The position numbers and the translations under genes are program-made. From NCBI GenBank assembly GCA_003615045.1, contig ML014218.1, positions 1 to 63,798 of the forward strand: a stretch of 63,798 bases of DNA, given 5' to 3'. Of the stretch, positions 1-6,126 are shown piece by piece. Numbering within the stretch: position 1 is the stretch's first letter; every line of letters starts with the position of its first letter. This stretch comes from Caulochytrium protostelioides (lineage: Eukaryota; Chytridiomycota; Caulochytriomycetes; Caulochytriales; Caulochytriaceae). The notes under the pieces were generated by a model. It saw only the letters and a list, made by a program, of their open reading frames with translations. It made no database searches and was not told where the DNA came from.

Positions 1-2
1 TG

Positions 3-128
3 TGGTATGAAGCCACCCACGGCAAGTTGGTGAACTTGAACCGCGACCTCAATGCCGCGTTGAACATCCGACGTTGTCTGGCCTTGCCCGTCAGACCCGC
101 GGCGCTGTGCCGCAATGGAGCAAACTAG
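3..128 (+). CDS. Fanzor/TnpB-like RNA-guided nuclease, C-terminal fragment cut by the window edge
   Basis: Reading from base 3 gives 41 residues before TAG at 126-128. The segment LNRDLNAALNIRR matches the RuvC-III motif (R-D-x-N-A-A-x-N-I) that closes the catalytic domain of TnpB and its eukaryotic relatives, the Fanzors. The Asp codon at 45-47 would be the third catalytic acidic residue. The downstream RPAALCR stretch resembles the R-P-x-x-L-x-R tail I associate with Fanzor1 proteins. The rest of the protein (REC, wedge, RuvC-I/II, zinc ribbon) lies left of the window, so whether the gene is intact cannot be told. Known members are RNA-guided DNA endonucleases carried by transposons. It is tail-to-tail with the kinesin gene: 148 bp separate the two stop codons. 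An ordinary bacterial TnpB contaminant is unlikely, because the flank runs directly into a eukaryotic kinesin gene. Confidence 0.72.
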   Translation, partial: WYEATHGKLVNLNRDLNAALNIRRCLALPVRPAALCRNGAN

Positions 129-236
129 GTTGCGGTCCGTGGTCGGCCAAGTCATCCGACACTGAACCAAAACGCTCGCTGCCTCAATGGGGGTACCCCA
201 GGGGTCTCCCACCGAGAGCATGGTGTGCGTGTCGAG
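103..236 (+). ncRNA. Candidate guide-RNA (fRNA/omega-RNA) scaffold overlapping the Fanzor 3' end
   Basis: Fanzor and TnpB guide RNAs are usually made from the 3' end of the nuclease gene and the bases just after it. Here that stretch holds several possible stems. Bases 109-115 pair with 130-136 and straddle the stop codon. GTCGG at 142-146 pairs with CCGAC at 156-160. Bases 190-199 form a perfect GGGGTACCCC palindrome. CACC at 210-213 pairs with GGTG at 222-225. The stems are seen in the sequence; their use as a guide scaffold is inferred from the gene context. The exact 5' and 3' ends are not defined. Confidence 0.4.
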
Positions 237-276
237 TCAGTATATCCGTCCGTAAATCTATATAATTATACGACAA
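237..276. other. AT-rich stretch, possible right end of the Fanzor-bearing element
   Basis: This stretch, including TATATAATTATA near 262-273, is strikingly AT-rich against very GC-rich surroundings. It lies between the candidate guide-RNA region and the kinesin stop codon. It could be the transposon right end, or simply the shared 3' UTR of two convergent genes. No terminal inverted repeat or target-site duplication can be recognised with the left end missing. Confidence 0.25.
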
Positions 277-2682
277 TCAGGAGGCATAGTAACTCTGAAG
301 CGTGGGCCGTCCGCCGTGTCCGGGGTGGCTACCCGGCGGCAGCGCGAGATGGCAGTCATAGATGTCCTCGTGGACGCCGCCGCCATTCTCCGGGTCCGGC
401 GGCAGACCGCTGAACGCAGAGCCGGGCGCCATGAGGCAGAAGACGCGCTCGCCGCCAAACACCGTGCGCGGTGGCAACTCGATTTGCTCGACCAGCAGGT
501 GGTCCGCACGGTACCGCCGCTGCTGCTGCGGATACTGCAGGGGCGGGCCCGTGGCGGTCGGCAGCCGCGAGCCGCCCTCGCCGAACGTGCGGGCGAACGT
601 GCACAGCGGCGCGCGGCGGTGGGGTTGCGTCGTGGGGCGGTCGAGCAGGGCGGCGGCCGTCTCAGCGGCGAGTGGCTCCATGCGCCAGTTGTTGAGCGCG
701 TCGTCATACACGGCCCGCTGCTCCACGCGACGCCGGGCCTCGTCGGGCACAAAATGGTCGAGAATGAGGGTCTTGAGATGCAGCTCTTTGCTCAGCTCGC
801 GGACATTCTCGAGCAAGTCTTCGCGCTCCAGGCGGAACTCGTCCTGCAGATCGGCGATCTCGGCCTTCACATTCTGGAGCTTGCTCCACAGCTTCTTGAG
901 CTTCTTAGACTTGACGTCGACTTCCTCCTGCAGGGAATTGTAGTTTTCCTCGATCTGCAGCGTGAGGCCTTGGCGCTCCTCCAGTTCGCGCTGCAACGCG
1001 GCTTCGCGCGCCATCTGAGCCTGCAGCTTCGTATCGCGGGCATCCAGCTCACGCTGCTGCGCCATCAGCTGCGCCTCCAAGTGGGGCGCATCGCCGCCCT
1101 TGAGAAGCTTGTTCTCGAGCATCCGCAGTTCGTTCGCCAGCCGCTCGCGCTCCACGCGCTCGGCCTCCAGCTCCTGCGCCCGCTGCTCCAGCTCGCGGGA
1201 CAGCCGCTGCTTCTCCTCGACCACGATGTCCTTCGACGCCAGCAGCATCCGCTTCTCGGCCTCGACCTCGCGCTGCAGCTGCGCGATCGTGGCGGGGTCC
1301 AGCGCCGCCAGCGTCGCGTGCGACACGCCCTCGCGGTCCGCGGCGTCCTCGCCGCCTTCGCTGTCGCTGCCGCTGTAGCCCGCCGACTCGTCGCCCGCCG
1401 ACTCGCCCGACTCGGAGGGGGCGCCATGCCCATGGCCATGCCCATGGCGGCCGTCGGGCCGATGCCGCGCCCCGGACCGCGTGGCGGCGGGCGCCGCGTC
1501 GGGCACGCCGCCCGTCTGCTGGCGCTGGATCATCGCGCGCAGGCGCTCGATCTCTTCCTGGAACTGCCGGAGCATCGCGTCCTTCGGGTCCTCGTTGATC
1601 TTGGGCTTGTTGCGGATCTTCTTGGCGCGGTTCGCATATCGCAGCGTCCCGACCGTCTCGTCGTAGTTGAACCCGGACGGCGAGAAGGTCGCGATCATGA
1701 GCGTCTTGGCGTTGCCGCCGAGCGAATCCTGCAGCAGCCGCGTCAGCTTCGAGTCGCGGTACGGGATGTGCGCGCTTTTGCCGTCCACGAGGGCGGAGAT
1801 GCAGTTGCCCAGCGCCGACAGGCTCAGGTTGATCTTGGTCGCTTCCTTCAACCGGTCGCCCGTGGCGCCTGTCTTGCCCTGCCGCTCACTGCCGGCGAGG
1901 TCGACCAGGTTGAGCTTGCCCTTGATGAACTTGACCTCGTCTGGCGTGATTTGTTGCGAGGACTCGACGGTGACGGTGAAGATGGAGTGCGAGCGCGAGC
2001 TCTGCTCATTCATCAACGTCGCGCCGACCGAGCGGTTCTTGTTGCCCAGCGTCATGAGCCGCTCCATCTCGTCCACGCTCTTCACGACCGTCGACGACAG
2101 GTCCTTGACATAGACGCCGGTCTCAGGATGCTCCTTCAGGGGCAGTCCCGTCTGCTTGCCCTTCACGTGCACCAGCAGATCGCGGATCTCCTCGTTGTAG
2201 ATCTCCAGAAACGAGACCGTCACCAGGAAATTCTTGTCGCTCGACTGTGCGATATGGTCGAAGAGATGGTTGAACGTGTTCGGGATGATTCCGCGCAGCG
2301 ACGGCGGCTCGGCGAGCCCCTGCATCGTGAACGTCTTGCCGGTGCCGGTCTGGCCATACGCGAGCACGGTGCCGTTGAAGCCCTCGAGCACCGACGCCAC
2401 GATCCCCCGCGCCGTCCGCTCATAGACGGCGTGCTGGTCCGAGTCGGGACCAAACGCCGCGTCGAACGTGAACGGCACCGGCTCGCCGCCGTTCGGCGGC
2501 GCGACACGGACGCTGCCGTCGGCTTCATTGACGTCGACGATCACCGCGTCGGCGCCTTCGGCTCGCTCGCGGTCATTGATGGGGCGGCACCGCACGACCA
2601 CTTGGATGTTCTCGGTCTTGGCCGGCGCCGCGGGCGCGGCGGCCGTCGCCGCGGGCGCGGCGGCCGTCGCCGCGGGGGCCAT
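277..2682 (-). CDS. Kinesin-2 motor subunit (KIF3/FLA10 type)
   Basis: An 801-residue plus-end-directed microtubule motor of the heterotrimeric kinesin-2 family, which drives anterograde intraflagellar transport. The motor domain has the P-loop GQTGTGKT (110-117), switch I NEQSSRSH (225-232), switch II DLAGSE (261-266) and YRDSKLTRLLQDSLGGN. The neck NKPKINEDPKDAMLRQFQEE is diagnostic of KIF3-type kinesins. A charged, His/Gly-rich hinge, a long coiled coil and a tail with RYRADHLLVEQIELPPRT, resembling the KIF3A tail, follow. The first ATG is at 2682; a GTG just upstream was not used. An Ala-rich leader of about 20 residues precedes the motor. The protein is somewhat longer than animal KIF3A. 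The final 60 residues match nothing I know and end beside the Fanzor flank, so the native C-terminus could be altered. Confidence 0.93.
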   Translation of the reverse strand: MAPAATAAAPAATAAAPAAPAKTENIQVVVRCRPINDRERAEGADAVIVDVNEADGSVRVAPPNGGEPVPFTFDAAFGPDSDQHAVYERTARGIVASVLEGFNGTVLAYGQTGTGKTFTMQGLAEPPSLRGIIPNTFNHLFDHIAQSSDKNFLVTVSFLEIYNEEIRDLLVHVKGKQTGLPLKEHPETGVYVKDLSSTVVKSVDEMERLMTLGNKNRSVGATLMNEQSSRSHSIFTVTVESSQQITPDEVKFIKGKLNLVDLAGSERQGKTGATGDRLKEATKINLSLSALGNCISALVDGKSAHIPYRDSKLTRLLQDSLGGNAKTLMIATFSPSGFNYDETVGTLRYANRAKKIRNKPKINEDPKDAMLRQFQEEIERLRAMIQRQQTGGVPDAAPAATRSGARHRPDGRHGHGHGHGAPSESGESAGDESAGYSGSDSEGGEDAADREGVSHATLAALDPATIAQLQREVEAEKRMLLASKDIVVEEKQRLSRELEQRAQELEAERVERERLANELRMLENKLLKGGDAPHLEAQLMAQQRELDARDTKLQAQMAREAALQRELEERQGLTLQIEENYNSLQEEVDVKSKKLKKLWSKLQNVKAEIADLQDEFRLEREDLLENVRELSKELHLKTLILDHFVPDEARRRVEQRAVYDDALNNWRMEPLAAETAAALLDRPTTQPHRRAPLCTFARTFGEGGSRLPTATGPPLQYPQQQRRYRADHLLVEQIELPPRTVFGGERVFCLMAPGSAFSGLPPDPENGGGVHEDIYDCHLALPPGSHPGHGGRPTLQSYYAS

Positions 2683-3970
2683 CACCGCGTGCGAGCGGGG
2701 GGCGAGGTTCGTCGTCCTCCGGCGGCTCGTGCACGAGCAATGCCGCGGCGCGGCGATTAACTAGAGGCGGCGAGCAGACAGCAGCGGCGCGGCGACCGTC
2801 GACGATGATGGGAAAGAAACGACGCAGGATCACGTGACCATGCAACAGAATCAATGCAGGAAAAACCGCCCGAGGTCATGAAGATGCAACGAAGTCGTGA
2901 AGGGGATGAATCAGCGGGAATTGGGTATCGACCGGGCTTCCGTTCAAGCCTTGCGACGAGCCTCGCGTCGGCTGTCGGCGTCGGCGCAACCACGCGGATC
3001 GAAGCGGCGTATCCTCGCGTCCGGGTATGATTTCCCGAGCAGCGGCCGTCGCTGCCATCCTTGTTCTGATGATCGTCCTGTACTCGTGGCGACGAGGCCG
3101 GGCCCATGGCGAATGCCGCAACCCCGCTTCTCCGCTCGAGCGCCGCGCGGCCGGGGGGCAGCGGAGAGGGGTTGGCATCATTCCGGAGATTCGATCTCCG
3201 CTAGGTCCGAAGACGCTCCGCCTCTCGGAATGGGGGTCGTTAGCCGCAACTAGCCGCCGCGGCCGACGCCGCAATCGACGCCGTTTCGCACGACCGCATG
3301 GGTGGAGGCGGGCGGCGGCGTATGCTTGGCGGCAGCACAGCACCACGGCAAACCGACGACGGGGTGGCCGCATGGCCATGGACGCGCCCATGGCCATGAC
3401 CATCAGCAGACAGACAACAGAGCAGCAGCGCCGCCAAGCCCACCGCGATGCATCATGAGGCGATGCCTTCATCGCATCCGTGGTGGCCGCTTGTGCATCC
3501 GCGTCGCATCGTATGCTTTATGGCTGTCGCGTCGGTTCATTGCGCCGACTTGCCCATCAACCGCAAGCCGAGCCTTCCCGTTCCTCGCTGTTCCCGCTCG
3601 ACTAACCGCACCCCGTGCCGTACGGACTCACGCCATAACGCCACACGGCGCCCCACCCCTCGGTCGATCTGCACGCTCTGCGCCACGGTGCCCCATCGGG
3701 TGCCCGCGTCCCCGCTGCCTCGTGGTCGCCACGTGCTCTGCCGCGCGTCGGCCCGACTCAGAGGCTCGCTGACACGTGGCTGGACCCCAGCCGACCTCCG
3801 CCTCTTCCGCGGGCGCGGCGGCTACTGACGAGGCGGCCGCCCTTCGCTGCGTGGCGTGCGTTGGCATTGGGCAGCGAGTAGTCTGGCCACTCCCGCAGCC
3901 TTCCGTGGTCTCGCGAATCGGACCTTGTTTAATAGATACGTCCGCGGATCGTACGGCGTCGCGGCGCATC
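2683..3970. other. Intergenic, divergent promoter region
   Basis: About 1.3 kb between the divergent kinesin and coiled-coil genes. It presumably holds both promoters. No TATA box, tRNA or convincing coding stretch is visible; open frames here are short and Arg-rich, as expected of GC-rich non-coding DNA. Confidence 0.5.
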
Positions 3971-6126
3971 ATGGCCGTCAGTCCCGATGTCGTTGACAAG
4001 TTGAAGCATTCGCTCGACTTGGCGGCGGTCCTGAAAGACGAGAACGAAGCCTACCGTGAGAACTTTGATCGCGTAAGTCTCGATGCGCAGCCAACGGTCG
4101 TGAAGACTCTCTCACGCCATGAGGTTCTCCGCGAGGACCAGGACATGATCATGATTCACGATGCCAAAACTCATCCTGGTTTTGTTTGATCCACGGATGG
4201 GGTATGACGGTGCGACGGGCACAGCTCCGCCGCGAGCACGAGCAGCTCAAAGAGCGGTATGAACACATCGACCGCGAACTCGAAGCCGCGAACGACGAAA
4301 AGGAGCAGATCGAGCGCCAGACGCGCGAAACGGTGCAAACGCTGCAGCACACGATCGAGCAGCGGCAGCAAGAGCTGCGCGAGGTCCGCGCACAGATCGT
4401 CCCGCCCGCCACAATCGCGCGAGAACGCCTCGATGCGCAGCAACAGCAGGACGAGGCTCATGCGGCCCGGCTGAGCGGGCTGGTGGAGACCGTCGCGGCG
4501 TGCCGCGCCGAGACCCAGGCCGCCCGGCGGACCGCCGCGCTGCTGCAGACGCAGCTGGACGAGGCTCACAAAGCCGCGGCACTCGCGAAGGAGGAGGCGC
4601 AGCATCAGCAGCAGATCGCGGTGCGGCGGCTCGAAGACCAGATCGCGGCGTTGCAGGTCCACGACCCGGACGAGCAGGAAGCCGCGGACGCCGAGGCGCT
4701 GCATCGCGCGCGGCGCACCGCGCGCGATGTCCAGATGCAGCATGCGGCCCTCCTGGACGAGAACAAGGAGATCCGCGCCCAGAAGGAGCAGCTGCGGGTG
4801 CAGCTCGAGCAGACGCTGCGCACGCACCAGCGACAGCTCACGGATGCCCATGCGCAGCACAAACTGGTGATTGCCGAGAAGGAGGGCATGGCCGCCAAAG
4901 TGCACGGCCTCGAGGAAGCAGGGATGGTCGCACAGCGTCGCCAGGAAGAGCTGCTGTACGAGATTGAGGATCTCAAGAACCACCTTGCTAAATCCACGCA
5001 CGGCGCCGAGGACGCGCAGCAGTCGCACCAGGCGGCGATGCAGAACTTGAAGCTGCAGCACGCGAAAGCATCGCAGGAGTATGAGCAGACGCTGCGCGAT
5101 CTGCGGGACAAGATTGCATCGTACAAGACTGCGGCGGCCACAGCGCAGGCCCAGATCCACGATCTGCAGACCCAGCTGGCCGGCAAGGAAGCCGAGCGCA
5201 TGGACGCGGTGCGGCTCGCGCGGGAGGACGAGCGCCAGACGACGGCCGCGCAGGAAGTCCAGATCAACAGCCTGCAGCAGCAGGTCGACGACGAGCGGCG
5301 CCTGCGGCTGGAGGCCGAGGAGGGCGCGCTTGCGCGCGCGAACGGAGCGCAGCACGAGCTGCACACCCTCAAGGAAGCGCACAGCCAGGTCCAGCACGCC
5401 CTTGAGCGCGCGCAGCAGGAGCTCCAGCAGCTGCGCGTCGCCCACCAGGAGCGCGGGATGCGGTGCGATGCGCACGAGGCCCAGCACGCGCAGACCGCGG
5501 CGGCGCTGCGCGAGGCGCGCGAGGCGCTGGCCGCGTGGCAGGCGCGCGAGGACGCGCTAACGTCGCAGAACGCGGCGCTTGTCGCGCAGCACGAGGCGAC
5601 GACGCGCGAGTGGGTGGCGCAGCACGCGCAGCTGCGGTCGGACGTCCAGGCGCTCGAGGCGCAGCTCGAGGCGGGCGCGGCGCGGCGCGCGCAAGACCGC
5701 GCGCAGCAGCAGCAGCACGTGCAGCAGCTCACGATGGAGAACACCCAGCGCTTGCAGCGCATCCGCGATCTCGAGAGCCAGTTCGAGAAGGCCGAGCACG
5801 CATGGCTGAGTAAAACGCGGGCGCAGGCGAGTGCCCTGGAAGCCTCGAACGCCCAGCTGGCCGCCCTGCAGGCGCAAGTGGCCGATGAGCAGAAGAAGGC
5901 CGACAAGGTAAGCTCCACCTCGACCACATATTCACCGTACGGTGAAGTCAACGAGATCATTCGGCCATTGAATCAGTGATTTGATAGGCGATCAGATAGG
6001 CAATGCTCACTCACAGATTGTTTTGTTTTGTCGTGTTTCACGGGTGCGTGATCCTCTTTTTAGCTGGCGGCCAAGCAACGCGGATTCTTGAAAACATTAC
6101 AGGCCGACGGCCTGCTGGCCATCTAG
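3971..6126 (+). CDS. Coiled-coil protein, three exons (3971-4072, 4225-5907, 6064-6126)
   Basis: Joining the exons gives a 615-residue protein, coiled coil almost throughout, rich in Gln, Glu, Ala and His. Exon 1 begins MAVSPDVVDKLKHSLDLAAV. Splicing at a perfect GTAAGT donor (4073) to CACAG (ending 4224) restores the heptads: ENFDR joins LRREHEQL. A second intron (GTAAGC at 5908, TTTTTAG ending 6063) replaces a non-helical read-through tail with LAAKQRGFLKTLQADGLLAI and a TAG. All junctions are phase 0. There is no signal peptide or membrane segment. I cannot name the family; in a flagellated organism a basal-body, axonemal or Golgin-like role is possible but unproven. It is divergent from kinesin-2 and convergent with ZC3HC1, with 131 bp between stops. 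Confidence 0.8.
4073..4224 (+). other. Spliceosomal intron 1 of the coiled-coil gene
   Basis: 152-nt, phase 0 intron with donor GTAAGT and acceptor CACAG. A T-rich stretch (near 4179-4187) precedes the acceptor. Read-through meets an in-frame stop. Confidence 0.75.
5908..6063 (+). other. Spliceosomal intron 2 of the coiled-coil gene
   Basis: 156-nt, phase 0 intron with donor GTAAGC. The acceptor TAG follows a CTCTTTTT pyrimidine tract. It is much more AT-rich than the flanking exons. Confidence 0.72.

Follow-up and report, generated by a model that had tools for sequence, protein, structure and literature searches.

The closest described relatives of the element reported here are the Fanzor1 nucleases. 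In published accounts, a C4 zinc finger belongs to the definition of a Fanzor, as part of a motif (PMC3627910) and of a regular expression (PMC10711439); "many" Fanzors are stated to carry it, DPG together with an alternative Glu is termed the Fanzor fingerprint, and Fanzor-encoding transposons with hundreds of copies are on record (PMC10711439). Here we analyze a stretch of 63,798 nucleotides (the window; GenBank assembly GCA_003615045.1, contig ML014218.1, positions 1 to 63,798, forward strand) from Caulochytrium protostelioides, a mycoparasitic chytrid whose genome was obtained by single-cell genomics (PMC6784888). Judged by sequence profile and predicted structure, positions 3 to 128 of the window encode the C-terminus of a Fanzor1-like protein. 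We put at about 0.8 the probability that this tail is the end of a decayed copy of a multicopy, Fanzor1-descended element and that the ancestral protein was an RNA-guided nuclease. The copies of this element examined elsewhere in the genome mostly keep the RuvC catalytic residues and have lost the C4 zinc ribbon.

A sequence-only reading of the window had recognized a Fanzor remnant at its left edge by the motifs RDLNAALNI and RP-x-x-L-x-R. The frame that holds them is open, the catalytic RuvC-III Asp is present (Table 1), and a 29-base tail pattern allowing up to 3 mismatches occurs at 419 places (215 + 204) in the 20.9 Mb genome, with none for the reversed-pattern control. The Fanzor relationship was borne out by a PDB search with a profile built from family members together with database relatives: its best matches were the three Fanzor1 proteins of solved structure, from Parasitella (E 4.2e-18), Spizellomyces (2e-8), and Guillardia (0.0018). 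Fanzor1 chains also headed the fold searches with two predicted folds, above TnpB, and by profile and predicted structure alike the RuvC/TNB half of the family protein has the Fanzor1 fold. Narrower searches gave less: a profile from the C. protostelioides copies alone had no PDB match, single-protein PDB searches were uninformative, with dihydrofolate reductase noise for L045 and a best Fanzor E of 0.45 for P0177, and the 41 window residues alone matched nothing in the PDB or the protein database and stayed below threshold against PF07282 (E 0.11; 13.1 bits, cut-off 26.3). PF07282 had no match at E ≤ 1e-3 over the C. protostelioides genome, as against matches in 6 of 14 controls; on single copies it matched weakly in 8 of 9 (best 0.00061), and the guided_TnpB profile weakly in 3 of 9 (best E 0.042). 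None of 24 pattern matches in viral contigs proved to be a relative by tblastn.

In the Caulochytrium copies examined, which are the best matches of our queries, the RuvC D-E-D triad is mostly kept and the C4 zinc ribbon is lost. The RuvC-I Asp (DPG context) is D in 16 of the 19 places with the site, which lies outside the window copy; the alternative RuvC-II Glu (DEFRTT), separated by six residues from the former first Cys, is E in 43 of 50 places, and the RuvC-III Asp (RD) is D in 55 of 62. In alignment with SpuFz1 and PpFz1, H..T stands in place of the first CxxC and mostly Y..T in place of the second. Cys is found in 0 of 52 copies at position 1 of the first knuckle (H in 45) and in 0 of 52 at position 4. 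For the second knuckle, the 62 places read at position 1 include 33 with Y and 15 with C, and the 63 read at position 4 include 55 with T and a single C (one gap in either set); these counts lean towards the window's own residues because the first, 41-residue query contains the second knuckle, the first knuckle lying outside it. The [TS][TS]xx part of the published motif is present as RTT, and the C4 zinc finger that should follow is absent. The sequence-only reading had called for a check of RuvC-I, RuvC-II, and the zinc ribbon, and held that an upstream part lacking them would refute a Fanzor: both RuvC residues occur in most other copies that show the sites, while the ribbon is indeed missing, as seen through those other copies only. 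The family is best filed as a zinc-ribbon-less Fanzor1 variant that departs from the published motif at the zinc finger. Between the former knuckles, L022, L013, L012, L027, and others carry Pro/Thr-rich near-repeats (ARSTAPTRVNPPR and alike) of varying length; the L026 model predicts this insertion with low confidence.

Loss of the ribbon extends beyond the Caulochytrium genome: among the 61 database relatives, the first-knuckle site was found by regular expression in 52, of which 49 lack CxxC there and all 52 have the alternative Glu. The three CxxC-bearing relatives (P0156, P0177, and P0181) are absent from the best 35 matches. By regular expression, DPG is present in 18 zinc-less relatives, with DPL in P0127 and DPS in two short ones, and P0137 (a Tetrabaena socialis locus), P0149, P0168, and P0174 combine DPG with frames open over 352–424 amino acids. 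In P0152–P0155, P0157, P0159, P0161, P0164, P0168, P0169, P0174, and P0180 the second knuckle is shortened altogether (RGVLWN...FVSRD type), apparently a further step of zinc-ribbon loss. A tree of 44 rows, which left out relatives below 180 amino acids (the zinc-bearing P0181 included), P0166, and P0178, set the two zinc-bearing rows apart by a branch of 1.53 (support 99/97), united nine relatives without the second knuckle as well in one group (99/98), and placed the Caulochytrium rows with P0121–P0124 (97/98); its bootstrap was not yet settled, and long branches lead to several rows, among them the two that bear zinc ribbons. A single loss of the zinc ribbon is likely on this topology, a reading weakened by the length of the zinc-bearing rows and the weak support of the deep forks. 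No description of a zinc-ribbon-less Fanzor clade was found in the accessible parts of PMC3627910, PMC10711439, PMC10432273, and PMC11423790.

The element's 3' end is clearly over-represented relative to its 5' end. With every candidate scored, a query from the N-terminus matched 58 times (65 candidates) and one from the middle 120 times (146 candidates); a RuvC-to-C-terminus query matched at least 191 times (144 of 1111 candidates scored). These figures are to be set beside the 419 tails with the reservation that the methods differ and one copy may yield several matches. All 150 places scored of the 570 candidates for the 41-residue query have 70–100% identity (E ≤ 5e-10). When copies were compared pairwise, the 5' limits varied widely, between about -140 and points past -1500 relative to the conserved tail, whereas the 3' limit was common, and by eye many copies terminate near ...AATAT. 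Mean divergence among the copies examined is 22–29%, and third codon positions hold 36–38% of the differences, an excess so slight that most changes look like decay. The expansion is large, yet no new kind of event, since 5'-truncated Chlamydomonas Helitrons and Fanzor transposons in hundreds of copies are already on record. One copy, L014 (C48:41047-41505), corresponds to the "hypothetical" C. protostelioides database protein P0179 (CXG81DRAFT_25443), which from residue 17 on is the same as the translated frame of the C48 copy; it is a Fanzor copy that has lost its middle, the N-terminal part being fused to the RuvC-III end.

We looked for marks of how the element moved. Target-site duplications gave no signal in 41 copies with imprecise boundaries (mean shared word 5.0, against 4.9 when shuffled), and general terminal inverted repeats were absent when tails were compared with the upstream regions of 30 loci. 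That comparison yielded 11 short matches, 10 of them on the opposite strand (6 in L031 and 4 in L035, L045, and L047), which we read as inverted neighboring tails, not general terminal inverted repeats. L035, L045, and L047 share an upstream sequence about 180–220 nucleotides before the N-terminal match, with an inverted 25–47-nucleotide match to the 3' tail that may be either an inverted neighbor or the terminal repeat of one subfamily. Reverse transcriptase domains (RVT_1) matched 19 times in the genome, and Fanzor pieces lie in at least 3 of 10 such loci (L061, L063, and L065); no 3' end shared between these loci and the Fanzor element was shown in the 10 looked at. In L063 (C144, about 1407-2390) a reverse transcriptase-bearing fragment, Ty3-like by eye, sits inside a Fanzor copy, and L036 has a piece 90.6% identical to it upstream of its Fanzor copy. 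Helitron_like_N (PF14214) had no match in the genome, nor in any control genome.

How the excess of 3' ends arose can be explained in more than one way. The mRNA of the element may have been copied from its 3' end by the reverse transcriptase of a retroelement, which is a possible but doubtful route: the rise from N-terminal through middle to tail matches (with their differing methods), the A/T-rich 3' ends, and the RVT_1 matches speak for it, and it has to contend with 3' ends that by eye show no clear poly(A) tails, with the missing target-site-duplication signal, and with an L063 fragment that looks Ty3-like rather than like a long interspersed nuclear element. We hold a Helitron-like or other recombinase-type DNA element initiating at its 3' end to be similarly tentative. 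The Fanzor1 Helitrons of the CRe-1 type in Chlamydomonas have like 5' truncation with intact 3' ends (PMC3627910), and the overabundance of 3' ends, a hairpin near the 3' end, and the missing duplication signal would suit such an element; the genome has no Helitron_like_N match, although the controls gave none either.

The loss of the ribbon, too, might be due to decay only, with a dead master copied passively by, for instance, retroelement or rolling-circle machinery, so that the Caulochytrium family would be uninformative on zinc-free function. Stops in many matches, differences spread nearly evenly across codon positions, and the rarity of 5' parts relative to 3' ends are as expected of decay. 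We nevertheless consider this rather unlikely, because relatives that lack the first CxxC almost throughout have kept the Glu without exception, because four of them remain open over hundreds of codons with DPG, and because those that lack the second knuckle too cluster together in the phylogeny. Bacterial TnpB contamination or a chance open reading frame has next to no probability. A motif in common with TnpB and the weak guided_TnpB matches speak for it; in our view, the copy number of 419, with the listed copies spread over many contigs of a fungal genome, the ranking of Fanzor1 chains above TnpB in the fold searches, and the adjoining kinesin-2 gene refute it.

A GC-rich hairpin directly 3' of the stop codon usual in the family is a candidate, and no more, for an omegaRNA scaffold or the element end. 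Folding of window positions 129-262 gave z = -2.0, with 4 of 200 shuffles equally good. In an alignment of 34 of the 47 filter-passing tails (64 located; more degenerate tails left out), 85.3% of the inner 16 pairs are paired, compared with 45–53% when slid, and the covariation score is 0.120, compared with 0.085 ± 0.010 in shuffles (0 of 500 as high); the structure was trimmed to these 16 pairs after all pairs had been viewed, which favors the hairpin. Double changes fall mainly at two pairs (columns 54/94 and 57/91). Several observations weigh against a conserved hairpin: pairs with double changes (5, compared with 3.8 shuffled) and further pair types (18, compared with 15.4) are unremarkable, RNAalifold on the tails gave only 2 pairs and did not recover it, two of four single folds were ordinary, and the tested structure was that of a single copy (L051).

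In our preferred reading, the element would encode one protein of about 700 amino acids, a length pieced together from fragments, without visible introns and followed by the hairpin of about 60 nucleotides. Ancestral intact copies would have made an RNA-guided DNA nuclease, its guide RNA perhaps derived from the hairpin and the adjoining flank, and the nuclease may have helped the element maintain or increase its copy number, a role suggested for Fanzor elements in PMC10711439; the former ribbon, now without zinc, would still fold adequately for function. The fullest version of this proposal, in which Fanzor1 proteins of a zinc-ribbon-free clade, present in a chytrid, in a volvocine alga, and in metagenomes, act as RNA-guided nucleases and more than 400 Caulochytrium copies arose by a 3'-end-first process, the nuclease cut perhaps priming the copying of the 3' end, strikes us as improbable.

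The window copy itself is a decayed repeat cut at the contig edge and would be a dead fragment. Its first base is the first base of contig C108, and the upstream part therefore falls outside the assembly. The 41 residues have 95% identity over 38 amino acids to C1:295104-295217 and 70–91% to the other listed places, and similarity to other copies extends to about 160-266 depending on the copy. By our reading of the alignment, 2 bases fewer than in most other copies near the C-terminus shift its last residues out of the frame of the tail usual in the family. With this frame shift and the truncation at the contig edge, the earlier suggestion that the gene could be active finds no support for this copy. 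A count by eye puts 9 of the 150 listed tail matches no more than 300 bases from a contig start (e.g., C19:10-114, C173:43-141, C174:78-188, C268:82-189, and C308:98-208), where about 0.7 would be expected from an even spread over 337 contigs, so it seems that the assembly breaks at Fanzor repeats, as it does at the left edge of the window.

The stop codon of the neighboring kinesin-2 gene lies about 15 nucleotides from the element end, and the nine best database matches of this gene are chytrid proteins (55–57% identity, 85–90% query coverage). Farther on, positions 4186-5979 hold a 597-amino-acid open frame that is Gln/Ala-rich and by eye probably coiled-coil, with no Pfam match at E ≤ 0.01.

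Table 1 Features at the left end of the window.
Feature	Position	Strand	Remark
3' end of a Fanzor1-like mobile element copy	1..263	+	Bounded on the left by the contig start; right boundary approximate
Last 41 codons of the Fanzor1-like open reading frame	3..128	+	Frame 3, open from the first bases; TAG at 126-128
WYEAT, site of the second zinc knuckle, without Cys	3..17	+	
RuvC-III motif RDLNAALNI	42..68	+	Catalytic Asp codon at 45-47
RPAALCR tail motif (RP-x-x-L-x-R)	93..113	+	Comparable tails in copies and database relatives
3' hairpin directly after the open reading frame, candidate omegaRNA scaffold or element end	172..230	+	
Kinesin-2 (KIF3B-like) gene	277..2685	-	Pfam Kinesin, E 1.4e-118

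A zinc-ribbon-less Fanzor1 variant that keeps the catalytic triad is the wider finding and is new to a moderate degree; since the zinc ribbon is part of the published motif and regular expression (PMC3627910, PMC10711439), such searches would miss zinc-less relatives. If full-length members do cut DNA, eukaryotic RNA-guided nucleases could do without the ribbon, and nature would hold a simpler nuclease scaffold. The Caulochytrium genome is in addition a large fossil record of one Fanzor element, whose spread and decay are open to study. With the known Fanzor1 proteins SpuFz1, PpFz1, and GtFz1 (PMC3627910, PMC10432273, PMC11423790) the family shares the DPG at RuvC-I, the alternative E, the RD, the fold by profile and predicted structure, and its encoding in a multicopy element, and Spizellomyces is also a chytrid host; unlike them, it lacks the C4 zinc ribbon, has a long, low-confidence Pro/Thr-rich insertion between the former knuckles, and is degenerate in the copies examined. 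Frequent 5' truncation with intact 3' ends recalls the Fanzor1 Helitrons CRe-1, CRe-2, and CRe-3 of Chlamydomonas, for which alone Helitron ends and insertion after TTTT have been demonstrated (PMC3627910). The Caulochytrium element can also be likened to CMe-1A of Cyanidioschyzon merolae, which has about 150 old copies with about 80% identity to the consensus, no terminal inverted repeats, and no known class (PMC3627910), but the Caulochytrium element has 419 tails and has lost the zinc ribbon. TnpB, Cas12f, and CasPhi share the RuvC fold and motif order with the family, yet score lower than SpuFz in the fold searches.
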